Shown here: positions 2,479 through 16,093 of the stretch, piece after piece
How the letters are laid out: each line of letters begins with the position of its first letter
Numbering within the stretch: the first letter of the stretch is position 1
Origin: Paracyclopina nana
Lineage: Eukaryota; Arthropoda; Copepoda; Cyclopoida; Cyclopettidae
Assembly (NCBI GenBank): GCA_019096065.1
Contig: JAGUCH010000001.1
Coordinates: 14,508,001 to 14,572,000 of the forward strand
Direction: 5' to 3'
DNA length: 64,000 nt
Program-made: the position numbers and the translations under genes
The notes under the pieces: model-generated
The model's database searches: none
What the model was told of the DNA's origin: nothing
Seen by the model: the letters and a program-made list of their open reading frames with translations, nothing else

Positions 2479-2963
2479 TGATATGTTCTGCAACCCAACG
2501 AGGCTTGAACCGGTGTTAGATGACAATGATCGCGATACGATGCGAAGACAAGTAGCAATGCTAACTAACCTAACTCTTACTTTCCAGCAAGGGGCAAGCT
2601 AACAAAGCAGGATGGCAGCCCAGGATAGGATTCAATCCAGGATGGCAATGCCAAAGACAAGACAAGCAAAGCTTGTGGAGAGGAAGGCCTCCTTTCTGGC
2701 CTAAATGGAGCAGCCTTCTTGCAATGGCAAGGAAGGATGCAAATGAGCAATGCTCAAGAAGTTCATCTCATATAACTGTAATGTAATAGCAAAATGGTGA
2801 CATAAAATATAGAGAATTGGCAGTAAACTTGGGTTTATTCAATGGCTTCTTGTTCAGTACTAAAGAAAACGCGGTGAGTTGGCACAAAAACAGCAGACTG
2901 AGCAGAGCAGGCGTAGTTGTCCATGAGCGGGAGAAACGGGGGCGGGCGGACCAGAACATAACA
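2479..2963 (-). repeat. BEL/Pao 3' LTR (left end), 485 bp
   Basis: Same 485 bp as 15609-16093; I found no difference reading the two copies side by side. In element orientation it starts TGTTATGTTCTGG and ends CAGAACATATCA. It contains AATAAA on the minus strand (2834-2839), a likely polyadenylation signal for the element transcript. It also holds three of the GCAWTGC palindromes (2553-2563, 2643-2653, 2744-2756). Confidence 0.97.
2834..2839 (-). promoter_or_regulatory. Polyadenylation signal in the 3' LTR
   Basis: AATAAA on the minus strand within the downstream LTR, lying after the candidate initiator at 2897-2901 in element order, as expected at the end of an R region. Confidence 0.5.
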
Positions 2964-2976
2964 GTTGTCCCCCCTT
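2964..2976 (-). promoter_or_regulatory. Polypurine tract of the BEL/Pao element
   Basis: On the minus strand AAGGGGGGACAAC ends exactly at the start of the 3' LTR. This is the usual position for plus-strand DNA priming. The same AAGGGGGGAC core precedes the 3' LTR of the small element at 22431. Confidence 0.85.
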
Positions 2977-2993
2977 GGACCACGCTGAGGTCT

Positions 2994-3330
2994 TCAAGGC
3001 CACTTGGCTGCGAAGGCCACATGGCGTGTGTCCAACACAAAACGGGTGGCATTTCCTTCTTGCACAAGCCGGTTGTAGGGCAGAAGGAGCACTCGATCTT
3101 CTTCGCGAGTGAGACGCAGCTGGAAGCCTTCGTGGAGCTGCAATCCTTTGATGTTGAGTAGGCTGCATAGGGCGGCCTCCTCCAGGAGGACCATCCAAGG
3201 CTTTCCTTGGGAGCCCTCATAGCTGTGATGCTCGGGGCGATGCCCTAGCTCTTGACAGAGCTCGCAGCGGGTCATGAGGAGCTCGCACACCATGACAGTG
3301 TGGTTCAAGACCCGCACAGCGGGTAAATGC
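2994..3330 (-). CDS. Accessory ORF2, last segment, zinc-knuckle-like
   Basis: Third segment, back in the frame of the first. It carries a second knuckle-like motif, C-x2-C-x4-H-x4-H (CELCQELGHRPEHH), and ends at a stop 18 bp before the polypurine tract. Because frames one and three agree, the two breaks compensate each other; the second break lies near 3310-3330. The open frame itself extends upstream to 3392 overlapping the middle segment. Confidence 0.5.
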
Positions 3331-4090
3331 AGCGCACTGGGCCTGCATTGCAGGCCCCAATCTCGTGATCGAAGGATCCACAGCGTCGACAAAAGTGGGG
3401 CGCAATGCGCCCCATGTGGAATACAATGTCAATGACGTCATTCCAATTGAGCTTGCCAGGGCTCCGCCGCACGATGGCGAGAAAGTCTTGCGCCAACTTC
3501 TTGGAAACCGCATGTAGGTCGAGCGCATAGCGCCGTGAACCCTTACGCAAGTAGGTGCGTGTCGCCACGATGCCATTGATGCAGGTGGCCCTGTTCTCCT
3601 GCAGCCACATCCAGAGGGCAACTTGCCCGTCCTCGCAATGCGAGGACGAAGTTGGCAACTCTTTCTTATTGAATGGTCGCATCTCTTCCTCCGTTTTTGC
3701 AAGTTGGCCAGAACTTCGCTTGTTCCTGACCCGATCCAGGTAGAAATGGATGTGACGCAATGCGTCAGCATCCAAGCCAAGTCCATGTCTCAGCATTCCT
3801 CTGACCGCGAGAGTGACGACCGAGGCCGCAGCGATGGCGTGATTGATCCACACATACATTTGCATTTGGGAGGACCATTTCTTGTATGAGACGCTGTAGT
3901 CATCGGCGTCCCTCTTGTATTGGAAGATCTTCCTTGGAGGTTCAACTTGAACCTTGGCTCCACCTCGGGAAGATGTCACCATGACCGGCACGGCCTCAGA
4001 GCCCAGTTTGTCAGCCATGAAGGTGACATTGGTCTTCATGGCCATGCGGAGAGACTCCTTCCTGTGGAAAGAGGGCAATGCCCACCAAAT
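3305..4090 (-). CDS. Accessory ORF2, middle segment in a shifted frame
   Basis: Open frame continuing ORF2 after a +1 frame change somewhere in about 4011-4090 (the open frame itself extends back to 4330, overlapping the first segment). It encodes a mixed globular region and ends with a zinc-knuckle-like motif, C-x2-C-x4-H-x4-C (CRRCGSFDHEIGAC), followed by further cysteines and a stop at 3305. A pyrimidine-rich CTCTTTCCACAG lies near the junction, so splicing is an alternative to a frameshift or an assembly error. Confidence 0.55.
   Translation of the reverse strand: MWWALPSFHRKESLRMAMKTNVTFMADKLGSEAVPVMVTSSRGGAKVQVEPPRKIFQYKRDADDYSVSYKKWSSQMQMYVWINHAIAAASVVTLAVRGMLRHGLGLDADALRHIHFYLDRVRNKRSSGQLAKTEEEMRPFNKKELPTSSSHCEDGQVALWMWLQENRATCINGIVATRTYLRKGSRRYALDLHAVSKKLAQDFLAIVRRSPGKLNWNDVIDIVFHMGRIAPHFCRRCGSFDHEIGACNAGPVRCIYPLCGS
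3339..3357. repeat. 19-bp perfect palindrome around GCATTGC
   Basis: GGGCCTGCATTGCAGGCCC, odd-length palindrome centred on 3348, inside the knuckle-encoding part of ORF2. Confidence 0.95.
3396..3414. repeat. 19-bp perfect palindrome around GCAATGC
   Basis: TGGGGCGCAATGCGCCCCA, centred on 3405, 57 bp from the previous long palindrome. The arms are unrelated in sequence but again fully complementary. Confidence 0.95.
3628..3648. repeat. 21-bp perfect palindrome, the longest seen
   Basis: Centred on 3638 with arms of ten bases (left arm CGTCCTCGCA). It lies in the ORF2 middle segment. Confidence 0.95.
3753..3767. repeat. 15-bp perfect palindrome
   Basis: TGACGCAATGCGTCA, centred on 3760; fourth member of the 3.3-3.8 kb cluster. 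Confidence 0.95.
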
Positions 4091-6356
4091 TGGCCTCGCA
4101 CTTGGCACGAATTTCGATGCCAATATCAGCATATCGCTTCTCCTCGCCAATATTGAAGCCAGTGACCCGAATGGAAGGCGACTCCAGAAGATCAATGATC
4201 TTCTTCGGGATTTTGGCACCACCAAAATATTGTTGCGAAGTGCCGCCATAGTTGCACTGAATGATGAGAAGCGTGCCAGTGAGGCTCCCCACTCCAAGCA
4301 GCGTGAAGCATCCTTCATTGGGCTTGCCATTGGTCGTCAACTTCTCCCTTTCCAGAGCTGGCACAGTCCAACTGTACATGTGACTAGTCATGGCCGTCCA
4401 GGCATCGATGTCGCTGAAGAAGGAGTACTTGTCCTCAAGCATTGCTTCCAAGGCGGGCCACTGGTCGTCTCTCTCAAGGACGAGGACATTCCTCTTGCCA
4501 CCAGATCCACGGCAATCAAAGGGCCCGGCCTTCAGTTTGATGGCCTCAATGGCCTCACGGAGGCTGAAGGTGGAGTAGCAATGCTCTCCTTTTTCACCCC
4601 GAACTTGTGCATCGTGAGGCCCTTCTGGCACACGATGGATGGCACAGTTGAGGGCGGGGCATTCTGCATTGCAGTGAGGATCTCGAAGCATTGCTTCCAC
4701 TCGAGGGCATGTAGGCTGAGGATCTCCTCCAGTTGGTGGTGGAGGCCGCAATGCGGGAGCACCAATGGCAGTGGTGCGAAGCGCTGCGATGAGCAGATCT
4801 GGCTCATGAAAAGGGTCGGCCATAATAGCCACAGATGGATTCTGGCTGAAGTGGTGCCAATAAAGAGTGAGCCACTCAGGAACCTCCTCACCCGCCATAG
4901 AGGGTGCCAGAGACAAAACTTGCCTCAAACATTCGTCCTCATTGGGGGGAATGCTTCTGAACATGCCCAAAACGATGATCTTGGCAAACCTTTTCCTGGC
5001 TTCCCAGACAACCTTCGCGGCCTCGAGCTGAGCTCCATCCAGAGGGCCCCTCTTCAACGGGTGCACGGGTGGGGTGGCAAAGATGCAGCTGAACTCGTAC
5101 CTCTCATAGACCTTGGCAGCCTTTGGATGGCAGACTTCCATCACCACTTCAGGTGGAGTGCCGGCCACAAGTGCCGCAATGCGGGTGTGGTCAGTCCGGG
5201 CTGCATAGGCGGGGTCAGCGATCCTGGAGGCGTGGTCCCTTGGGTCTTCCGGGTCGGGTGGCCCATAAGACCAGGAATGGGCTAGAAAGGCCACACTGGG
5301 GTCGCAATAATGCTTCAACAGCTGATCCCCGGCGAGTTGTTCCATTTCATCCTCAAAGACAAAAGTGGTAGCCTTCATGGCCATCCCAAGGACTCGTAGA
5401 TGGTCAGCGAGCATTGCTCTCCTCTCCTCGTGTTTTGAGGGTAGACCGAGTCCTGAAAACAAACGATGCAGATTATTTGGCCATACTTTTCCGGTTTCAT
5501 CTTTAACGATTGAAAAACCACGCTCCCAAGGGGAAAAAACCTCCCCAAAATCAACTTCCATCTCTTGATCGCCCGTTGAAGTTTCTTCCACCTCTTCGGG
5601 GATTTGTGGTCGACTGCCCAACCGAGAGAATACTGAGCTCCTGGCAACCTCTCTATCTCTCCTTGCATCTTCACGTCGATCACGTCTTGGTAAACGGGGT
5701 ATTTTGAAGGTGGAGAGGTTGGATCTTTCAAGCGGTGCTCTTCTTGAGGACGAAGACCTGGAGGTAGATGGCGTGGGAGAGGATCTCGACCTTCTTCCAT
5801 GACGCTCGCGATCACGTTGGTGATCGTCGCGCCGATGCGACGAGCTCCTGGAGGCGGGGGCGCTTTTGGTAGGAGAGTCAACTTTCTTCTGCTTCTCCCC
5901 CTCCTCCTCGTCCTCTTCAAGAAGCCCAAAATCGGCCTCACTGACCTCCGCGTGAAGGTTGAGCTCGTCTCCACTTTCGGACCCTAGTATACTTGTTGAT
6001 ATACTACCTTCATGGACCACGCTCGATGGTGAGCCGACTGACATTTCAGATGGGGTGTAACCAGGAGAAGATTGTTGAGGCTGCGGCTGATCAGTTTCCA
6101 TTTTTTCTTCTATTGTGGCCGGGGCAGTTGATGGGGAGGGAGTATGAGCAGCAATGCTAGACTCAATTTTACCTGTTGATCGGACAGCAATGCTGCCTCG
6201 GTGTTGACCGCAGAGATTGTCAAATTCTTCGATGACCGCTGCATTTTCTTTGCACTCGTTGACCTCAATCGACGGGCCTTGCACGGGAGGCTGGCCTTCA
6301 ACCTCCAGAGGGGTGGGGGACAGTATGGTCCCCCCAATTGGGACACTATTTTCCAT
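4011..6356 (-). CDS. BEL/Pao accessory ORF2, first segment (781 aa)
   Basis: I do not recognise this protein. It sits where an env gene would lie, yet shows no signal peptide and no membrane span, so it is not a typical envelope. Residues about 1-160 are acidic and S/P/E-rich. Residues about 165-245 are rich in RS/SR, RR and RD pairs like nuclear RS domains. Residues about 260-560 look globular. A cysteine-rich patch (about 565-600) follows. The last 150 residues weakly resemble a 3'-5' exonuclease (RNase D/WRN) fold, but with the usual acidic residues not clearly kept. The frame stops at 4011, while coding-like sequence continues in another frame; with two later segments the whole would reach almost to the polypurine tract. 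ATG at 6356 is the first in frame. Confidence is high that it is coding, low on function. Confidence 0.75.
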   Translation of the reverse strand: MENSVPIGGTILSPTPLEVEGQPPVQGPSIEVNECKENAAVIEEFDNLCGQHRGSIAVRSTGKIESSIAAHTPSPSTAPATIEEKMETDQPQPQQSSPGYTPSEMSVGSPSSVVHEGSISTSILGSESGDELNLHAEVSEADFGLLEEDEEEGEKQKKVDSPTKSAPASRSSSHRRDDHQRDRERHGRRSRSSPTPSTSRSSSSRRAPLERSNLSTFKIPRLPRRDRREDARRDREVARSSVFSRLGSRPQIPEEVEETSTGDQEMEVDFGEVFSPWERGFSIVKDETGKVWPNNLHRLFSGLGLPSKHEERRAMLADHLRVLGMAMKATTFVFEDEMEQLAGDQLLKHYCDPSVAFLAHSWSYGPPDPEDPRDHASRIADPAYAARTDHTRIAALVAGTPPEVVMEVCHPKAAKVYERYEFSCIFATPPVHPLKRGPLDGAQLEAAKVVWEARKRFAKIIVLGMFRSIPPNEDECLRQVLSLAPSMAGEEVPEWLTLYWHHFSQNPSVAIMADPFHEPDLLIAALRTTAIGAPALRPPPPTGGDPQPTCPRVEAMLRDPHCNAECPALNCAIHRVPEGPHDAQVRGEKGEHCYSTFSLREAIEAIKLKAGPFDCRGSGGKRNVLVLERDDQWPALEAMLEDKYSFFSDIDAWTAMTSHMYSWTVPALEREKLTTNGKPNEGCFTLLGVGSLTGTLLIIQCNYGGTSQQYFGGAKIPKKIIDLLESPSIRVTGFNIGEEKRYADIGIEIRAKCEANLVGIALFPQEGVSPHGHEDQCHLHG

Positions 6357-6643
6357 AAGGAATTCACTTTTCCGACGGTGGCAATTTGCTTTTGTTGATG
6401 AACAATGCGTGGTGAGAAACGGAAGTCAATAAACTGGTTTCTCATTTTTGCAACGCAAGAAAACTTTCCGCGGAAACCTCGCGCAACATCGCAATGCGAA
6501 ATCACGCAACATATAACAATAATTGAGCTGCTAATGAGAGCAGAGTCATGCGCAACTTATTTTATGAACGAGCAATGCATTTACATATTTTGACTAGAGT
6601 GTTGTGCGCAATGCGCACGATTTTTGTATTTTTGACGATTGGA
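6357..6643 (-). other. Spacer between polyprotein and second ORF
   Basis: About 287 bp with no convincing coding frame. It holds three copies of the GCAATGC core, one of them a perfect 15-bp palindrome at 6604-6618. How the downstream ORF is expressed is not visible; I found no strong splice acceptor just before its ATG. Confidence 0.5.
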
Positions 6644-9600
6644 TTAAACACTGCCTTTGGTGACAGTGCGATTGGAGAGTATGGGCGGCTGCACATCATA
6701 AGCGTCCTGTGTATTGTGAGAAGCCTGCATTGCAGCCATGTATCTCTCTAAACTTTCCCAATCCTTTTCGTCAGCCAAATGTGCTAAGTCGGGTGAAATT
6801 GATTCACCTACCTTGTTGTAGACCATTAACTCATCTGATTCTCTGAACACGTTGAGGGGAATGAGAAATTGCGCAGATTTTTCGTAATAAACTGGCTCGA
6901 CTTCTCCTGGCGGGACGATCTTGACAATGGCTCGTCTGCACTCTCCATCTTGATCGCGAATGGCCTTGTGTATAATCCCCAAAGGCCAGCAAAATCTCTT
7001 GTGGAATTGAGGCTTCTCCAACACGGCCACCACATCCCCCGTCTTCAAAGTTTTTCTATGGTGTTGCCAGATTGGCATCTTTTTCAATTGCTCCACCCAT
7101 TCAGTGGTCCAAAAATCCCATAGAGACTGCAATGCAGCCTCAATTGTGCGATACCTTGCCTCAAGGGTTTTGAGTTGCTCAGGGTCAATGACCGGAAGTA
7201 CTTCCCCTGGTGGTCCGCGTGTCAGAAAATGATTAGGGGTGAGAAAATAACCATCTAATTCTCCAATTGGCCTGCCATTGACGAAACCCTCAGATTTTAT
7301 TACAATGTAGCGAAAGTCTTCAAGATCAGTGACACGTCCAGAGAATTCCCGGTAGAGGGCTCTCTTGAAGATCCTTATGGCTGATTCAGCCAAACCATTG
7401 AAGTTGGGCGAGAAAGGAGGTGAAAGCGTCCATTGGACTACCCCGATTCTCCCCCCATATTGTCTTAATCTTTCCCAATCGATCACTTGCAATTTTTCCA
7501 GCAGCTCTTGGTAGCGGGGATTGGTTCTGATGGCTTCTCTGCAGCCCAAGAAGTTGCTTCCATTGTCACTTCTCAAGGTGTGAGGACATCCTCTTCTGGC
7601 GACAAACATCTCCAAGGCTCGCATCAAATTTTCAGTGGTCATATCGTAAAGCTCTTCGCAGTGAATTGCTTTCGAGTGTAGACAAATGAAGACCACCACG
7701 TACATGTTGTACTGCGAACGGTTGAACTGGGTTGCGAATGGACCACACATATCGAAGCTTGTAAATTTGAAGGGCAGAAATTCTGTCAAGGGCACCATGT
7801 GTGGGGGAAGTTGGCCCATATGAGGTGGCAATGCCACCAATTTGTGCCTCGCACATTTCGCACAGTTGTTCAGGATTTCAGTCATGATGCGCTTTGCGCC
7901 TGGAATACAATACTTCATTAGTGCTTCACTTACATAACGCAGCCTCCCCAATCCGTGCCCGAGCTTCTTATGGTAGTCTTCCAGAATCAACCTTCTCCCA
8001 GCACCTGGTACGATCAATTGTCTTCTTCCTATCCACTGAACTGGCGAGACATCGAGCCTTCCTTTGGTCCTCAGTTCTCCACCAGGGTAAAGTACAGGAT
8101 CCATGGGGGCGAGCCTACTTCCTTTTGGCCAGATAGCTCTCTCAAGAAAGTGATCAATCTCCTTCGAGTATTCCTTTTGCTGCAGCCAGGTAGCAATGCT
8201 AGCCTCTGCAAGATTGAGCTCTTCGGGTGTGAGGTCTTCGCCCTTTTCGTCCACGGGCTCTCTGTAGATCACGAACAAACCAAATCTTCTGGCATAGCAC
8301 AGTGCTCTGACTGCTCGAGTCCAGTTGCTAAAACGAGAGAGATCTACATGGCAATGCGCATTGCGCATGTTACCCCAGCTTGCTTTGATGGCTTCAGTGG
8401 GCTTCAGGTGTCTGGGAACCTCACACCCTCCCATTCTTTGAAATTGGTTGACCAAGACAATCTTTTTTATGACTTTCTTAGCACGCCTTGCACTCAGACC
8501 AGTCTTTTCATACTTTTCCAATGCCGCTCTCTCATCATCAGTTACTTCGGGAGTCCACTTTGGAAAATGCTCGTCACTTGCCCTCAGAAACCTTGGTCCA
8601 TGGATCCAGAGATCAGAATCTGCAAGATCAGCTACGCTGGTCCCTCTCGTGATTAAATCGGCCGAATTGACTTTTCCAGGAACATGATGCCACTTATAAT
8701 TGATGGTTTTTTCTACAATCAAGGTGACTCTCCTAGCTACATATTTTTTATACTTGCAGGCGGGCTTGGAGATCCATGTGAGAACGCATTGCGAGTCTGT
8801 CCATAGATGCACTTCATCAACCCTCTCCAGAGATCTGATCGCATCCACACAAAGATCAGAGCCCATAACACATCCATCAAGCTCAAGCTCTGGCATGGAG
8901 CGAGATTCAGTCAGATGAGTGATCTTAAGTCGCGATGCGAGCAAGGTGCAGTCATAGTTTCCTTCTTCATACTCCACACGAATATAAGCGCAAGCTCCCT
9001 TTGCCGCTTCGCTCGCATCAGAAAACACATGGAGGGAGATCCGCTTTGCGGGTTTGTGGCGCATTGCGCGAGGAATTCGAACTAATTCAATTTTTGAGAT
9101 TTCCTCCACATAGTGGCCCCATTCTTTGGTTATTAAATCAATCTCCTCTGAATCAACCATGTCAAATACGGTGTCCCAATCAACATCAAATACGGTACGA
9201 AGCGCCATTACTCTTTGTATGAGAAGTTTGCCCCGAAGAATGATTGGAGCCAGAAGCCCCAACGGGTCAAAGAGCCTTGGCACATATTGAGCCATGAGCC
9301 TCAGAGTCAGTGGCGCATTGCGCATGGTGTCATAACTCGGTGGCTGAAATATGATCTGATCTCCTTGGCAGTCCACATACATGCCTAAAGCCTTAGTGAC
9401 CTCAGCTTTCTCATCATTGACGGCAAATCCAGGAAGCTTGAGGGCATCATCAATCCCATCCAGAACTGAGGCAACATTGCTGCCCCATTTCCTGAATGGC
9501 ATCCCACCTGACTCCCCTAAATCAAGAATCTGCTTCACAGTCTCTCGTCCTTCGGCCACGTCCTCCACTGAGGCAAAAACGTCATCAACGTAGAGGCTGT

Positions 9601-12600
9601 TATCGAGGACGCGATAGCCCAATGGGTGCGTATCCTGATATTTTGAAATGTGGTGCTTGACTGCGAAATTCGCCATGCAAGGGGCACTTGCAGTGCCAAA
9701 CACCACTGATACAGCCTCATAGTGAACTCCCTGCCACACAAACCTATGAAATTTTCTCGAGGCCGGATCCAAGGCAAAACGCAGAAACATTTTACTTATA
9801 TCCGTGACAATTATGATGGGTTTTTCGCGAGCCCCGACGAGAATCTCGAAAACGTCGCGTTGCAACTTCGGGCCGGGCAAAAGGGCATCATTTAAGCTTT
9901 TACCGTGATGTTTCCTTGATCCATCGAACACAACCCTGACGGGCATTGAAGGCTTGTCTTTTCTTTCCACCAGTAACCAGTCCAAATAATAACCATCATC
10001 GAGGTCTTCCGTTTCAGGGTCAAGGATCCTGACAAACCCTGAATCCAGCCACTCCTTGAGCTCTTTGGTGGCTTTTTCATATGTGGGCATGTCAAACAAT
10101 CTTAGCCTTCTTTCAACAGCGGCGGTGGCCTTCATGACCGCAAGGCGGTTATTGAGAAAATAAGGCTCTCCTGGCCTCCACATTGGGCTCATCTGGTATT
10201 GTTTGCCATCAATTTGCGATATGGTGGTGGTAAGGATGTCGAGTGCGCGTTTGTCATTCACACTTAACATTGTGAGGGGCGGTGGTCCCAGCGGATCGTC
10301 GTATTCCCAAAGGGCCTTCAACAATTCATTCGGTGGCGGAATGTCCTTACCTTCACACAATTGGCACAGAGGGACAGGAGGTTCTTCTTCATCTCCAGTG
10401 GGTAAAGCAATGCTTCCCAACATGACACCATACTGAGAGGCCCCTTTTACTTGCTCAGGAGTATAATAGGTGACAACTCTTCCCAAGGCACAGTCGTAAA
10501 TGTATGGCTCTCCATCCTTCTTGTGCACGATGTGTTCAGGCATGATCAAATTATAGTAATCAATACCAATAAGGAGATCAGGATGAGGAGGGCTGGCATA
10601 GGTTGGCAGCTCCAGACTGGACAAAAACTCGAACTTTTTCTTGAGTCTGTCCAACGGTGGAACGTGCACAGTGGATGGCAGATTGTCAATGGTGTGAAGA
10701 GCCAAATCATGATGAGGTCCCCCCATGGGAGACTTTACCCTCAATGTTACAGCATTGCTGGTAACGGTGACAGTGGTAGCAATCATCTTAAGGATCTGAT
10801 CATCCGATACACCGTCCAACTTGAGCTTGTCTGCCAGAGATTCAGAGACAAGTGACAGTTGAGCTCCCGTGTCCAAGAAGGCATTCACCCTGACATACTC
10901 GTCTGGATGCGAAGGGTTGGCAACTAACAGTGGTACGACGCAAAAACTCAACAGCTCTCTAGAATTTCTAGCTGGCCTATTTGTTGCGTTGTTTAGAGCA
11001 ATGCTCTGCTTTGAAGACTTGCCAGCTGTGTCCGAGATTTTTGAGCAGTTCGCGATTTTCAACGAGGTTGTGGAAACCTTGGCCTCAATGATGGCACTAT
11101 CCTGTTGATCTATGTTACCCCCCCCACCATTTGTGTGATCCAAAACCAAGGACGCGTCATTTTTTGGGTCAACAAATACATCCTCGAGAGTTGCATTGCA
11201 ACTGTCATTAAGTTGTGAAAGGTTTTCGCTTTGATCAAATTCACTGGCAGAAACAGAAGTGAAGTGAAGATGAGCATTGCTCTTTCTTACCTCTTCTTTG
11301 ATAGGGTCGACGTCTTCAGTGGGGTCATTTTTCTTGTTCAATTGTTGCAAAGCTTCCGCCAATTGTGCAACCAGGTTCTCATTCGAGTTCTTTTGCGGGT
11401 TGCCTTGGTTTTTTGGCCCTTCTGTGGTTTCATTTTTCTTGTCCTTGTGGTCCCAGGCTCCATGGAGTCTTGTGTGGTGACTGTCAGATTGGCATTTTTC
11501 ACATTTCCAGCTCCTGATGCATTCTCTGGTGTTGTGGGCTCCTGCCATGCAGCGAAGACAAGCCTTGTATTTGAAACATTTGAGAGCCTGTCCTCTTGGT
11601 GGCAATGCCAAGATGTTGGGACAATTGAAAAACCGATGCTCAGTTGAGCTGCACTCAGGGCACTTTACATAGTATTTTTGGTCATTTTTTGTTACCGTTA
11701 GGATTGTGAAGCCTTGACCACTTTCATCGGGCATTAGTATTTCTTCGGTTTCATTGCAAGTTGACGCCGTACTGGAGGAAAATTGCATAATGTTGGACGA
11801 GGGACGAGCTTCTTCCTCTGGGTAGTACGCAGGCAAGTACTCCTCTTTTGTTAGGTCCTCTGAAGTTGCTTCGAAGTGGTGCAATGCACCGGGAACAGGT
11901 CTTGCAATTTTGGGCTTTGGTGTGGGATTGTTGATGGTGGCTTTAATGGATTGAGACCTGAGACGATGCAATTTCTTGTTACACCACTTTTCGAACAAGG
12001 GACCATTCAGATAGGAATTGGAGTCGTCATTTCTTCCGTTGACAAACTGATCAATGTCGTTTCTGGTTCCTAGTGTCATTGGAAGCGATCTGAAAATATA
12101 AGAGTCATGCAAATCCATAGAGGCGGCAATGCCGGGATAGCCCCAATGAGCTGTGACATGACGATAGATGTCGCCGACAGCCAATTTGGCTGTCATGACT
12201 GAGGACGCGTTTTCATGATCGAGTGGTGACATATTCATCAATTTACTGATCAAACAATCCATCTGCAGTTTGGGACATCCATAATCTGCTTGCAGAGCCT
12301 CCAAGCAATACAGATATCCAGCCTCGGTTTGAGGCTGCCTCGAGACGAAATCTCCCGCTGGTCCGCCTTGAGTCAGCTCCATGAGTCTCGAGTATTTCTC
12401 GGGCCAGGGCATGGTGGGATCTTCATGTATGAACGAACGGAATTGATCTCTAAATGCGTAAAATTCAGAGATGTCATGACCAGTGAATTTGTACATGTTG
12501 ACTGGAGGAAGTTTAGCCTTGTATCGATTTGGTTGTTGAGGTTGATAGCCATATTGCCCATAATGCTGCATTGCAGCTTGAAGATGAGGCGCCTGATAAT

Positions 12601-15553
12601 GGCCAAAACTCTGGTTACCAGCCTGCAATGCAGGCTGACCAATCGGAGGCGGGGCGGCAGCAAAGGGCGGGGCAAATGGATTTGTTCCAGTTGCATTTTG
12701 CGATTGTTGATTGTTCATGGGGTACCCATGTTGATTTAGCATGGGAGGCTGCAATGCAGACTGAAAGGGCACATGCGGAGGTTGAGCTACATTTTGCATG
12801 CTTGCATACTGTCCAGTGGGAACCAAGTTAGGTTGAAAGTAAGGAGGCTGCTGACCTCCAAGGTTATTGAAACCGGGAATCAAACTGGGTTGTTGGCTCA
12901 CTGAATAACCTCCTGCTTCACGAGAACTCGACATAATTGGGTTTGGATGAGAGTACGCGGTTCCATGGCTTAGAATGGGAGCCGGAAAATTGTTACCTTG
13001 TGAAGGTGGCGCACTATAGTGAGGAAGAAACAGGGGGTTCATAGAGGCAGAAACAGCATTGCTGTAAATGGGCGCCTGGTTAAATCTTGGCGGAGGTTGG
13101 CAGGGAGGTTGTACCTGTGGCGGAGCAGCACTCATTGCAGGAGGGTGATTACCACGAGTTGGTGGCGGGGCTGCAAAATGCGTTGGCCAAAAATGGGGCG
13201 TGCTTGTGGTAGTTGGTGGAGCTCCCCCTGGTAATCCAGGACGATAGCGCAATGCGCTTGAAGCTTGACTGACCACGGCTTGCGACATTGTAGTGTTCTG
13301 TCTACTTGGCACATACACACTTCCACTCACAATACCTCTCACAGGTGGTGGCTGCATGGGTGGGGCCGAGCTTTGTGCCGTTGGATTGGGAGGGGCTGAA
13401 TTAGATGGAGGTTGGCTAGCCATGTAAAGATCCTGTGGTTGTCGAGATGCCACAGCTCCTGCGGGCAATTCTTTAGCCATTCCTCTGAGAGTTTCAATCA
13501 TGCGGTCGCCCTGTACAAGTGCGCGTCGATCAGCGTCATCCAATTGACCTCCAGCAGCCTCAAAACGTTGCGCAGATTCTTGCGCAGACATCAAAGATTG
13601 TGCATAACTTCCGTAGTCAGCAAGAACGTCAACAGCGGGTGTCCCATATTCGATCTCATTTTGCATTGTGCTATGACACGCCCTGAAATGTGAGATTGCA
13701 CCCCCAAAATCCCTCGCTGCCCGTATTAGAACTCCAGGGTCGGGAGGTTTAGTTTGCGAGGGTTGATTTGAGGCAACATTTCCGATGGGCATTTCGCGTC
13801 GCGAAGTGCCGTTCGCACTTTCCAGCATAGCTGAGTTGTGCGTTGAGGTGGAAATTCCTCGAGAGCCCGCTTGCTGGCTCTCATTTCCCACTCCAGCGGC
13901 AGCTTCTGGTTCAGCCGTGGGCTGACCTTGCTGAGAGTGCCTCGGCTGCATTGCAGCTTCCCGGGAAAAGGTGCCTGGCCTCACTTGCAGCTGCTTGTTG
14001 AGCCAATCGGCGGTGGCTGCATTGTTGACCTGCTGTGCATCGAGATAATAGTAGTTACCATCATTCATGATGACATGGCAGCCTCCCGTAGTTTCATCAA
14101 CCTCCACTCTCGCTTCGTGTTGATCACGAGCTCCACTTCCCTCATCCGGTTGCATGGAATTGGATTCTTGATCGGTCTGTTGAGCTTCACGCTCCAATTG
14201 TTGATAGTAATCGGCAAGAGGATCCTCTTCTGCAGAATTGGGTGCATTTGAAGTGGGGCTCTTGTATGTTCTCAGGATCTCATTTGCGGCATGGAGCAGA
14301 GTTTGGCAGGCGCGATAGTTTTTGACATAAGCTTCCTTCAGAGTGGAAGAAGGTTCCAAATTCGCAATGCGAACTGCTTCTTCATAAAGCTTGTAAAGTC
14401 TATCATACTCTTTGACATAATACCTCAAGTGCTGTAGAGCTTCATTTGCATCAGCCTTGGTGGTCTTTGTCTTCTCGTCAAGGAAAGCTGCTCGATGTTT
14501 CCTCACAAAGGGATTGGTGATCTGAAACAAATTCTGCAGAGATTCAGTGTGAGCAAAAGCCTCTACCTCTGCCCTCTTGGCATCTTGAATTTGTTTGGTC
14601 GTTTTCTTGGCAGCGTTGGGTCTTGATCGAGAGCCCCGTGGAGTGTATTCAAGATCAGAGGCTGCTTTTGACGTGGTGGATTTCTTGCCTGCCCCTGTGG
14701 CTTTTCTTTTGCCTCCAGCAGGAACATGAGAATCTCTCGGCTGCATTGCAGAAGCGGAGGCCGCCAATGACGACTGAGATCCCATTTCGTCTTGTGATGA
14801 CATCGTTGGACCCATTGAAGGAGGTGGAATAGGGTTACCTGCTTGCATGCCTAGAACTCTTCCCGAAGTATTGCGACCTGGGACAGAACCTCCAGTGTTT
14901 TTTCCAGCAGTCATTCCAGGATTTGCAATGACAGTCGTAGAGGTGGTATTGGAAGGCGTGGTCTTCGATGAACCGGCAATGCCTGTAGTTCCCCGATGGG
15001 GAGTAGAGCTTGGGGGTAGTGCGCCTTGCGCAACAGGGGGCAACTGAGGAGCCTGAAAGCCTGAGGCAGAAGCTCCTGTGCCTCCAGGATTAACACCTGG
15101 AATGGGATGAGATCTTCTGCTTCCTACTGGCATGGGGGTATCAGGAAAGACCGATTGATCCGGATTGTAACCTGCTCCTCCTGTATTAGGAGGTGTATGT
15201 TGAACAGGCATCTTCGTCTTCTTAGCCTTAAAGGGGAGTGGAGTGGACTCAAAAGATGGACTAGAACGTTGAGCTTGAGGAGACTGGATTAGGGAGACAA
15301 TTTCTTCCACGTAGTCCGGATCAGAGACTTCAGCGGCCACGTCTTGAAACAGTGCAGCTCTCGCGTCAGAATCGGATTCTTTGGCGCTTTCTTGACGAAG
15401 ATCCCTAAGGGCTTGATGATAAGGGGATATTTCTAGATTGATTTTACCCTGATAATCATATGGACTTTGCCCTTGGTTGCGTCGGCTTTTCCTGGTGGGT
15501 TCAGTTGCAACTTTCTTCTTCCCTCCAGAGTTGGCCTTGCGATTACGTGGCAT
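6644..15553 (-). CDS. BEL/Pao gag-pol polyprotein (2,969 aa)
   Basis: One open frame encoding capsid-like and replication enzymes. The ATG at 15553 is chosen because it follows the PBS; the frame is open upstream only through the PBS and into the LTR. In order: a basic N-terminus; a long P/Q/S-rich gag to about residue 1000; a DUF1759-like gag segment at about 1015-1195; cysteine-histidine knuckles at about 1296-1358; an aspartic protease with D1561 in a DTGA motif; reverse transcriptase with a YVDD box at 1988-1991; RNase H (SDAS near 2176, TDSQ near 2252); and an integrase with an HHCC-type zinc module near 2525 and acidic residues D2601, D2663 and E2723. A DUF5641-like C-terminal domain follows. 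There is no stop or frameshift. At nearly 3,000 residues it is long for BEL/Pao, mostly because of the low-complexity gag. Palindromic GCAWTGC sites interrupt the sequence in more than one codon phase. Confidence 0.95.
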   Translation of the reverse strand: MPRNRKANSGGKKKVATEPTRKSRRNQGQSPYDYQGKINLEISPYHQALRDLRQESAKESDSDARAALFQDVAAEVSDPDYVEEIVSLIQSPQAQRSSPSFESTPLPFKAKKTKMPVQHTPPNTGGAGYNPDQSVFPDTPMPVGSRRSHPIPGVNPGGTGASASGFQAPQLPPVAQGALPPSSTPHRGTTGIAGSSKTTPSNTTSTTVIANPGMTAGKNTGGSVPGRNTSGRVLGMQAGNPIPPPSMGPTMSSQDEMGSQSSLAASASAMQPRDSHVPAGGKRKATGAGKKSTTSKAASDLEYTPRGSRSRPNAAKKTTKQIQDAKRAEVEAFAHTESLQNLFQITNPFVRKHRAAFLDEKTKTTKADANEALQHLRYYVKEYDRLYKLYEEAVRIANLEPSSTLKEAYVKNYRACQTLLHAANEILRTYKSPTSNAPNSAEEDPLADYYQQLEREAQQTDQESNSMQPDEGSGARDQHEARVEVDETTGGCHVIMNDGNYYYLDAQQVNNAATADWLNKQLQVRPGTFSREAAMQPRHSQQGQPTAEPEAAAGVGNESQQAGSRGISTSTHNSAMLESANGTSRREMPIGNVASNQPSQTKPPDPGVLIRAARDFGGAISHFRACHSTMQNEIEYGTPAVDVLADYGSYAQSLMSAQESAQRFEAAGGQLDDADRRALVQGDRMIETLRGMAKELPAGAVASRQPQDLYMASQPPSNSAPPNPTAQSSAPPMQPPPVRGIVSGSVYVPSRQNTTMSQAVVSQASSALRYRPGLPGGAPPTTTSTPHFWPTHFAAPPPTRGNHPPAMSAAPPQVQPPCQPPPRFNQAPIYSNAVSASMNPLFLPHYSAPPSQGNNFPAPILSHGTAYSHPNPIMSSSREAGGYSVSQQPSLIPGFNNLGGQQPPYFQPNLVPTGQYASMQNVAQPPHVPFQSALQPPMLNQHGYPMNNQQSQNATGTNPFAPPFAAAPPPIGQPALQAGNQSFGHYQAPHLQAAMQHYGQYGYQPQQPNRYKAKLPPVNMYKFTGHDISEFYAFRDQFRSFIHEDPTMPWPEKYSRLMELTQGGPAGDFVSRQPQTEAGYLYCLEALQADYGCPKLQMDCLISKLMNMSPLDHENASSVMTAKLAVGDIYRHVTAHWGYPGIAASMDLHDSYIFRSLPMTLGTRNDIDQFVNGRNDDSNSYLNGPLFEKWCNKKLHRLRSQSIKATINNPTPKPKIARPVPGALHHFEATSEDLTKEEYLPAYYPEEEARPSSNIMQFSSSTASTCNETEEILMPDESGQGFTILTVTKNDQKYYVKCPECSSTEHRFFNCPNILALPPRGQALKCFKYKACLRCMAGAHNTRECIRSWKCEKCQSDSHHTRLHGAWDHKDKKNETTEGPKNQGNPQKNSNENLVAQLAEALQQLNKKNDPTEDVDPIKEEVRKSNAHLHFTSVSASEFDQSENLSQLNDSCNATLEDVFVDPKNDASLVLDHTNGGGGNIDQQDSAIIEAKVSTTSLKIANCSKISDTAGKSSKQSIALNNATNRPARNSRELLSFCVVPLLVANPSHPDEYVRVNAFLDTGAQLSLVSESLADKLKLDGVSDDQILKMIATTVTVTSNAVTLRVKSPMGGPHHDLALHTIDNLPSTVHVPPLDRLKKKFEFLSSLELPTYASPPHPDLLIGIDYYNLIMPEHIVHKKDGEPYIYDCALGRVVTYYTPEQVKGASQYGVMLGSIALPTGDEEEPPVPLCQLCEGKDIPPPNELLKALWEYDDPLGPPPLTMLSVNDKRALDILTTTISQIDGKQYQMSPMWRPGEPYFLNNRLAVMKATAAVERRLRLFDMPTYEKATKELKEWLDSGFVRILDPETEDLDDGYYLDWLLVERKDKPSMPVRVVFDGSRKHHGKSLNDALLPGPKLQRDVFEILVGAREKPIIIVTDISKMFLRFALDPASRKFHRFVWQGVHYEAVSVVFGTASAPCMANFAVKHHISKYQDTHPLGYRVLDNSLYVDDVFASVEDVAEGRETVKQILDLGESGGMPFRKWGSNVASVLDGIDDALKLPGFAVNDEKAEVTKALGMYVDCQGDQIIFQPPSYDTMRNAPLTLRLMAQYVPRLFDPLGLLAPIILRGKLLIQRVMALRTVFDVDWDTVFDMVDSEEIDLITKEWGHYVEEISKIELVRIPRAMRHKPAKRISLHVFSDASEAAKGACAYIRVEYEEGNYDCTLLASRLKITHLTESRSMPELELDGCVMGSDLCVDAIRSLERVDEVHLWTDSQCVLTWISKPACKYKKYVARRVTLIVEKTINYKWHHVPGKVNSADLITRGTSVADLADSDLWIHGPRFLRASDEHFPKWTPEVTDDERAALEKYEKTGLSARRAKKVIKKIVLVNQFQRMGGCEVPRHLKPTEAIKASWGNMRNAHCHVDLSRFSNWTRAVRALCYARRFGLFVIYREPVDEKGEDLTPEELNLAEASIATWLQQKEYSKEIDHFLERAIWPKGSRLAPMDPVLYPGGELRTKGRLDVSPVQWIGRRQLIVPGAGRRLILEDYHKKLGHGLGRLRYVSEALMKYCIPGAKRIMTEILNNCAKCARHKLVALPPHMGQLPPHMVPLTEFLPFKFTSFDMCGPFATQFNRSQYNMYVVVFICLHSKAIHCEELYDMTTENLMRALEMFVARRGCPHTLRSDNGSNFLGCREAIRTNPRYQELLEKLQVIDWERLRQYGGRIGVVQWTLSPPFSPNFNGLAESAIRIFKRALYREFSGRVTDLEDFRYIVIKSEGFVNGRPIGELDGYFLTPNHFLTRGPPGEVLPVIDPEQLKTLEARYRTIEAALQSLWDFWTTEWVEQLKKMPIWQHHRKTLKTGDVVAVLEKPQFHKRFCWPLGIIHKAIRDQDGECRRAIVKIVPPGEVEPVYYEKSAQFLIPLNVFRESDELMVYNKVGESISPDLAHLADEKDWESLERYMAAMQASHNTQDAYDVQPPILSNRTVTKGSV
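12619..12637. repeat. 19-bp perfect palindrome in gag
   Basis: CAGCCTGCAATGCAGGCTG, centred on 12628, in the P/Q-rich gag part of the polyprotein. Confidence 0.95.
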
Positions 15554-15587
15554 AGGAAGAGACTCTTTTTCTAGGGTGGATTCGAGG

Positions 15588-15605
15588 GCCCCACGTTGGG
15601 CGCCA
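15588..15605 (-). promoter_or_regulatory. Primer-binding site for tRNA-Lys(CTT)
   Basis: On the minus strand, TGGCGCCCAACGTGGGGC begins three bases inside the 5' LTR. It is complementary over 18 nt to the 3' end (with CCA) of animal tRNA-Lys(CTT) as I know it. This fixes element orientation and the priming tRNA. Confidence 0.9.
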
Positions 15606-15608
15606 AAC

Positions 15609-16093
15609 TGATATGTTCTGCAACCCAACGAGGCTTGAACCGGTGTTAGATGACAATGATCGCGATACGATGCGAAGACAAGTAGCAATGCTAACTAACC
15701 TAACTCTTACTTTCCAGCAAGGGGCAAGCTAACAAAGCAGGATGGCAGCCCAGGATAGGATTCAATCCAGGATGGCAATGCCAAAGACAAGACAAGCAAA
15801 GCTTGTGGAGAGGAAGGCCTCCTTTCTGGCCTAAATGGAGCAGCCTTCTTGCAATGGCAAGGAAGGATGCAAATGAGCAATGCTCAAGAAGTTCATCTCA
15901 TATAACTGTAATGTAATAGCAAAATGGTGACATAAAATATAGAGAATTGGCAGTAAACTTGGGTTTATTCAATGGCTTCTTGTTCAGTACTAAAGAAAAC
16001 GCGGTGAGTTGGCACAAAAACAGCAGACTGAGCAGAGCAGGCGTAGTTGTCCATGAGCGGGAGAAACGGGGGCGGGCGGACCAGAACATAACA
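15609..16093 (-). repeat. BEL/Pao 5' LTR (right end), 485 bp
   Basis: Promoter-bearing LTR in element orientation. A TCAGT initiator-like motif on the minus strand at 16027-16031 is a candidate start site; no TATA box is obvious. It carries the same AATAAA (15964-15969) and the same three palindromes as the left copy. Confidence 0.97.

Follow-up and report, generated by a model that had tools for sequence, protein, structure and literature searches.

What makes a retrotransposon repeat one short self-complementary motif throughout its length, within flanks that are symmetric and spelled differently from copy to copy? The question is raised by a 64,000-nucleotide stretch of the genome of the copepod Paracyclopina nana (assembly GCA_019096065.1, contig JAGUCH010000001.1, positions 14,508,001–14,572,000), called here the window. 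A young BEL/Pao element lies on its minus strand at 2479-16093, between two long terminal repeats (LTRs) of 485 bp which were identical when compared within the window. The motif GCAWTGC (W for A or T) is scattered over its gag-pol gene, a second gene, ORF2, and the segments outside both. An earlier reading, made from the sequence alone, had placed the element at 2553..15886; it is indeed there, and slightly larger. The sites are very probably hairpins of the sense RNA. A reasonably probable explanation, drawn from sequence comparisons, is that they are dispersed sites on the element RNA for an element-encoded protein, most likely that of ORF2, which would mark this RNA as self.

Symmetric Sites in the Window Element

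The interval 2555-15883 contained 49 GCAWTGC cores and the remainder of the window (~50 kb) 10, in agreement with the sequence-only reading, which had counted about 49 and about ten. The first flanking pair was complementary at 47/49 element cores and the second at 43/49, both together being complementary at 43/49. This symmetry, also noticed in that reading, was absent from the rest of the window, where both pairs were complementary at 0/10 sites. One site occurred on average per 280 nt through LTRs, genes and intergenic gap, and no regular spacing was found between the cores of the element (spacing variation 0.81, for a random range of 0.75-1.26). Beyond the fourth pair the pairing fell, with complementarity dropping to 44, 36 and 29% at the fifth, sixth and seventh pair, which defines the unit as a 4-bp stem carrying a 3-nt loop. 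Of the fixed core with symmetry over at least 11 bp that had been claimed, the stem and loop stand; the core is not quite fixed, as symmetric flanks were also seen around the loops CAT and CTT and around some other paired inner stems.

The motif is not rare in the host, with 17,027 occurrences in the whole genome (~185 per Mb), and the special feature of the element is therefore the concentration of sites with symmetric flanks. In 2000 codon-preserving permutations of gag-pol and ORF2, means of 6.0 cores and 0.6 symmetric cores were obtained, with maxima of 14 and 5, compared to 35 cores in the actual coding pieces, 30 of them with both pairs symmetric. The sequence-only reading had named such a shuffle as a check on its claim, and the claim survived it. 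Chance or codon use as the cause was ruled out by codon-preserving permutation, in the window element as in the ORF2 of the four clades described below. The density of cores was highest between the two frames (13.6 per kb, 3 in 221 bp) and in the LTRs (6.2 per kb), where coding cannot explain them. A motif common to the whole host genome was also rejected, the rest of the window (~50 kb) being at background, 0-0.012, for every loop tested. A cluster of 8 GCAWTGC cores at 179-181 kb of contig C1 was discarded as well: both-pair symmetry was 0/8, and by eye it resembles a short tandem repeat.

Paired Changes among Sister Families

The reverse transcriptase (RT) stretch of the element matched five near-identical copies in the same genome, the window copy included, and eight sister families with 68-77% DNA identity over the matched part. 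The sister families were sampled in part, over 8.0-13.6 kb each; together with the window family they are referred to as clade 1. The pooled pieces of this clade, used for loop scans, symmetry, strand and pair-type counts, exclude the second LTR of the window element and contain slightly shortened sequences of families B (12457 of 13636 bases), D (12510 of 13422) and H (8488 of 8823). The trait was present in all 8 sisters, with 15 to 38 cores each and complementarity of 93-100% at the first pair and 84-95% at the second. The sites thus occur in 9/9 clade-1 families, and ORF2 likewise in 9/9.

When the families were aligned, some hairpin positions were common and others lineage-specific. At sites common to families the first flank pair was near-invariant (50/54 columns constant). 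At the second pair of homologous sites, 75/108 changed pairs went from Watson-Crick to Watson-Crick, compared to 7-9% at ordinary positions of equal spacing; the 108 comparisons overlap, and 7 columns hold two or more Watson-Crick types. The sequence-only reading had named other copies devoid of the sites or of paired flank changes as grounds for rejection; its claim survived this comparison too, with sites in 8/8 sisters and these 75/108 changes. The five near-identical copies were uninformative in their ORF2 part, where 2/228 positions vary inside sites and 86/4935 outside. In pol the corresponding figures, 12/156 and 549/4601, were of no use because part of one copy is divergent.

Different Loops in Other Clades

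A protein search with the ORF2 of a sister element found homologues with 29-37% identity in numerous other BEL copies, the matches totalling at least 45 (here and for the ORF2 counts below, 40/325 candidates were scored). Peptidase_A17 had 150 scored matches in this genome. GCAWTGC was found 22 times in the 17 other-BEL pol loci L022-L038, or ~0.34 per kb, compared to a genome average of ~0.19 per kb and to values of mostly 2-4 per kb at the clade-1 loci. A motif-free scan recovered hairpins with loops proper to each of four clades, 1, X, Y and Z. The first rank was taken by ATT, alone or together with its closing pair, in 9/9 clade-1 families, CAG was within the top five in 9/9 clade X elements, a GAAA tetraloop was within the top two in 5/6 clade Y elements, and GTC was within the top five in 4/4 clade Z elements, there with small counts of 3 to 6. 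This reach of the trait into other clades with different loops goes beyond the sequence-only reading.

Pooled counts, given as stems of at least 4 bp per loop occurrence with related copies included, were 175/1589 for ATT and 116/1572 for AAT in clade 1; 85/1021 for CAG, 39/861 for CAT and 34/1231 for CAA in clade X; 45/367 for GAAA in clade Y; and 16/344 for GAC and 16/224 for GTC in clade Z. The other GNRA-type loops tested in Y showed no enrichment (GCAA 0/176, GGAA 1/226, GAGA 0/203). With identical contexts removed and loci L070 and L071 added, 262, 108, 31 and 33 four-pair hairpins were left in clades 1, X, Y and Z, respectively. The closing pair was C-G in 232/262 of them in clade 1, where the main loops have T as third base, and in 89/108 in clade X. 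The stems of clade Y require three pairs only. In ORF2 alone, the loop of each clade exceeded its permutation mean: AWT in clade 1 reached 51 (mean 2.8), CAG in X 22 (2.0), GAAA in Y 29 (1.9) and GWC in Z 13 (2.0). The separation of the clades was imperfect. AWT was also above its null in the ORF2 of clade X, with 8 compared to 1.4, as was CAA/CAT in that of clade Y, with 7 compared to 1.4; GSC was above it in two clades, with 13 compared to 1.5 in Z and 7 compared to 2.3 in Y.

One element, at C3:1.05M (loci L029 and L067), showed 11 GAAA and 17 CAA loops whose pairs 2-4 are complementary, compared to 2 for TTG, the complement of CAA. The presence of the two loops in one element indicates that loops shift within clades, and from its sequence this dual-loop element is a possible intermediate of a loop switch. 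A relative of clade Z (L070, C5:6.33M) showed a further loop type, GGC/GCC/GGT instead of GAC/GTC. At one aligned pol position a GCGC stem carried AAT in 4/7 clade-1 rows and CAG or CAA in 4/5 X rows. In all, 12 aligned pol positions had hairpins from at least two clades, and at the remaining 11 no such correspondence, with stem retained and loop exchanged, was found.

RNA Hairpins or DNA Palindromes

The complementary loop provides a strand control in two of the clades. In X the complement of CAG, CTG, closed stems in 12/883 occurrences, compared to the 85/1021 of CAG itself; in Y the complement of GAAA, TTTC, scored 0/158 compared to 45/367. Enrichment in the sense reading only points to RNA hairpins, not DNA palindromes. 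The types of imperfect pairs agree in part. In Y the closing pair was U-G in 8 cases and A-C in 0, and the fourth pair G-U in 12 and A-C in 3; in X, G-U exceeded A-C 15 vs 3 at the second pair and 15 vs 2 at the fifth. Changes in Y pol led to G-U in 48% and to Watson-Crick pairs in 21% of 29 changes, compared to 25% and 6% in the control, and Y ORF2 showed no double change among 9. In local folds, AWT hairpins had a predicted pairing of 0.71 and 0.60, compared to the 0.33 and 0.21 reached by the element's other triloop stems.

Several observations weigh against RNA hairpins and, for clade 1, lend themselves to sites acting at the DNA level, as cruciforms, as hairpins in single-stranded cDNA or as dyads for a dimeric factor. 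Clade 1 shows no preference for G-U over A-C, and its AWU loops form a set that reverse complementation leaves unchanged; its pattern is nearly strand-symmetric, and antisense folds pair nearly as well (0.57). In clade X the closing pair was G-U in 10 cases and A-C in 10, and the fourth pair G-U in 9 and A-C in 13. Covariation in X was weak by a looser test (Watson-Crick 10% and 14% vs 7% and 10% control), and among the variable second-pair columns of clade 1, 14/20 include a non-Watson-Crick member. In clade X the predicted folding was intermediate, at 0.45 and 0.47, and in clade Z it was poor, at 0.21.

Given the strand symmetry of clade 1, the choice of RNA over DNA rests mainly on clades X and Y, with their strand-specific loops and the tolerance of Y for U-G closing pairs. 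In clade 1 itself, the loop CAT was symmetric in 25/30 cases and its complement ATG in 13/27, and the free flank letters argue against direct reading of half-sites. We consider action at the DNA level improbable; this includes the dyad sites for a dimeric DNA factor put forward in the sequence-only reading, which are disfavoured by the free flank letters and by the strand-specific CAG and GAAA loops of the sister clades. In X and Y at least, the sense RNA would be where the hairpins act and, by homology of the trait, the same would hold for clade 1. Among the options of that reading, the evidence thus favours RNA mini-hairpins with an AWU triloop, whose binding by a protein would be a further step.

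A mutational origin, by snap-back or template switching during reverse transcription that perfects palindromes, would leave symmetry with free letters as its trace, and pairs 5 and 6 are somewhat enriched. This origin, also raised in the earlier reading, seems highly improbable: the symmetry is concentrated on loops that differ between clades, it falls after the fourth pair (in Y after the third), some sites are conserved across families, and an excess of symmetric flanks is seen for only a small number of other cores within these elements.

A Candidate Reader

Sister clades of one genome prefer different loops, which would be unexpected for one host factor and makes it likely that the hairpins are read by a protein that the elements encode. 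ORF2 is present in all four hairpin clades, in 9/9 clade-1 families and beside 13/17 of the other pol loci L022-L038, with longest open frames of 1002-1529 aa in 15 sampled loci. On an ORF2 tree of 16 rows, the four loop types fit with three changes, the minimum; the loop labels on this tree were assigned by clade, and the Z rows are long-branched.

We propose the following. The sense RNA of the BEL/Pao element would carry stem-loops in which at least four Watson-Crick pairs close an A-W-U loop, the inner two pairs usually being G-C and C-G and the outer two any. A protein encoded by the element would recognise the loops and coat or mark the element's own long RNA. Such a mark would identify this RNA as self in a genome shared with many other BEL copies, whether for export or for packaging. 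The foremost candidate for the reader is ORF2, with its arginine- and serine-rich (RS-rich) N-terminal part, its three zinc knuckles and its clades matching the loop types, and the alternative candidate is Gag.

Selection of the genomic RNA is a task generally expected of Gag. The hairpins could be dispersed packaging signals read by the zinc knuckles of the Gag nucleocapsid, with ORF2 in another role. The gag-pol product has CCHC-like knuckles by eye, and the available portions of published accounts describe dispersed stem-loops with a short common loop motif for the capsid proteins of RNA viruses. Inheritance cannot separate Gag from ORF2. However, ORF2 too has knuckles, and in addition an RS-rich part and a presence in all four hairpin clades. 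Gag as reader is rather unlikely to our mind, and the balance of sequence features tips slightly towards ORF2.

The hairpins could also be used by a host RNA-binding protein, which the element would have co-opted or which would silence the element. Triloop stem-loops are known targets of host TRIM-NHL proteins, among them LIN-41, the LIN-41/TRIM71 response element being recognised by loop and closing pair, with a preference for U-A closing and a purine as third base, in the part of the description consulted (PMC5908797). The 4-bp stems on 3-nt loops of clades 1, X and Z resemble this element in form, those of Y, with a tetraloop, do not. The LIN-41 response element as such was rejected, on the same partial description, as clade 1 has neither the U-A closing pair nor the purine but C-G (232/262) and T (U in the RNA). 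The X loops CAG and CAA do have a LIN-41-like purine in third position, yet C-G closes 89/108. Clade-specific loops in one genome are hard to reconcile with a single host factor, and harmful sites would be expected to vanish, not to reappear; a host reader is thus improbable.

As to function, coating by ORF2 may serve nuclear export, a block of splicing or the countering of silencing by small RNAs instead of packaging. The RS-rich part of ORF2 presumably recalls splicing and export factors, and for VANDAL elements a partial account describes sequence-specific element proteins with a role in anti-silencing. This is a lesser possibility, although a serious one. From these sequence features we tentatively prefer packaging or self-marking to a role in anti-silencing or in the control of splicing.

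A wider scheme may also be considered, as a speculation on the sequences at hand, in which the elements possess a diversified code for RNA self-recognition. Each clade would write its own loop repeatedly and encode a matching ORF2, and loop and reader would change together via dual-loop intermediates. The code would read AWU; CAG/CAA/CAU; CAA plus GAAA; GAAA; and GWC, genes included.

Some points speak against ORF2 and against the scheme as a whole. Any vertically inherited gene would match loop type, and the tree therefore does not single out ORF2. Some of its clade-labelled rows differ from their label, L067 having in its own stretch mainly CAA and few GAAA, and L070 having GGC/GCC/GGT. We infer, and do not observe, binding of the hairpins by any protein, and this extends to the reader and its function.

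ORF2 may represent a new RNA-binding family, judging from its sequence. PDB searches gave no significant match, nor did Pfam up to E 1 for the first open part. In a large protein collection 0/7999 scored candidates reached E 0.001; in viral contigs 0/23 pattern matches were confirmed, and the RT stretch had no match in plasmids. An apparent likeness of one ORF2 stretch to RNase D-type exonucleases, judged by eye, was dropped, Pfam and PDB giving only insignificant rows (E 0.74 and above). A structure prediction for a piece of ORF2, made without alignment, had a mean predicted local distance difference test score (pLDDT) of 34 and was set aside.

Organization of the Element and Its Surroundings

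All features of the element lie on the minus strand. The 3' LTR (2479..2963, 485 bp) has hairpin cores from 2555, 2645 and 2747 and is an exact match to 15609-16093; the latter, the 5' LTR (15609..16093, 485 bp), has cores from 15685, 15775 and 15877 and matches 2479-2963 exactly. Their ends are TG...CA, and AACA is present outside both, LTR ends and a short target duplication as in BEL/Pao elements. The gag-pol open frame (6644..15694, 3016 aa from stop to stop) contains 27 cores, and its first 86 bases are within the 5' LTR. The frame includes DUF1759, aspartic protease-like, RVT_1, Peptidase_A17 (Pao), integrase H2C2 and core, DUF5641. Peptidase_A17 (4.6e-33) and rve (3.5e-8) are in this single frame, as expected of BEL/Pao, and both above cut-off; RVT_1 (3.7e-6) is slightly below it (27.2 of 29.6 bits).

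The first open part of ORF2 (4011..6425, 804 aa) has an RS-rich N-terminal part by eye and contains 10 cores. Its continuation, in another frame (3305..4336), has at its end one CCHC-type zinc knuckle, followed by the beginning of another. The ORF2 of the window copy (3305-6425) is thus split over two frames, by disruption or perhaps by splicing; it is one continuous frame in four sister families (C, D, E and I), with 1132-1176 aa and three knuckles each by eye. The gap between gag-pol and ORF2 (6426..6646) is the densest hairpin stretch, with its 3 cores at 6491, 6572 and 6608 in 221 bp.

Between the LTRs, the first group of cores (3343..3765) is at 3345, 3402, 3635 and 3757. Their complementary flank pairs number 6, 6, 7 and 4, respectively, which places the first three among the longest stems. 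The next ones are at 4075, 4439, 4578, 4666, 4688, 4748, 5176 and 5411 (4073..5419), and at 6151 and 6187, which with the three of the gap span 6149..6616; the flanks at 6572 are not symmetric. Cores follow at 6727, 7129, 7828, 8193, 8351 and 8358 (an overlapping pair), 8786, 9061 and 9315 (6725..9323), then at 10407, 10752, 10998, 11193, 11274, 11602, 11881, 12126, 12568, 12625 and 12751 (10405..12759), and finally at 13056, 13249, 13948, 14364, 14743 and 14976 (13054..14984).

The segment 20985-22676 is a small element in which two identical direct repeats of 234 bp lie 1458 bp from each other; it has 0 GCAWTGC inside and is probably the small neighbouring LTR element mentioned in the earlier reading. 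The segment 26172-33466, on the minus strand, corresponds to one or more host genes; its two long open frames contain C2H2 fingers as well as four homeodomain stretches, and Pfam marks it as ZFHX3-like. Elsewhere in the genome, the start of contig C1 (L061, 1-240) is made of a short TGGCC-type tandem repeat rather than the familiar animal telomere repeat.

Comparison with Known Systems

The element shares with BEL/Pao its LTRs and its matches to Peptidase_A17, RT, integrase, DUF1759 and DUF5641, and has in addition the extra ORF2 and the dispersed hairpins. Among the matches listed in open-access literature for the sequence words, for extra ORFs in BEL/Pao, and for hairpins or dispersed signals in retrotransposons, no description of the present trait was found. 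How LTR retrotransposons choose their own RNA among relatives, and whether dispersed packaging-type signals are real, are open questions. The putative sites are statistically distinct within one genome and the clades offer natural loop swaps, which makes recognition directly testable.

In the VANDAL/VANC system, an element-encoded protein reportedly recognises a short motif that recurs within the element itself, and its specificity diverges between families; the motifs are said to be DNA and to lie in noncoding regions. The likeness with our elements is at the level of logic: here the motifs are RNA structure, they also occur in genes, and anti-silencing, the function described for VANDAL/VANC in Arabidopsis DNA transposons in the parts of the reports consulted (PMC5735166, PMC10398659), is only hypothetical. 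Closer in form are the dispersed RNA packaging signals of single-stranded RNA viruses and hepatitis B virus (PMC6281560, PMC7612645), which, as far as the consulted parts of these accounts go, have in common with the present sites many short stem-loops, one loop motif and a spread over the whole genome. Unlike them, the hairpins described here belong to an LTR retrotransposon, LTRs included, and are far above codon-preserving controls, with a reader that is only proposed; and their loops differ between clades of one host genome.

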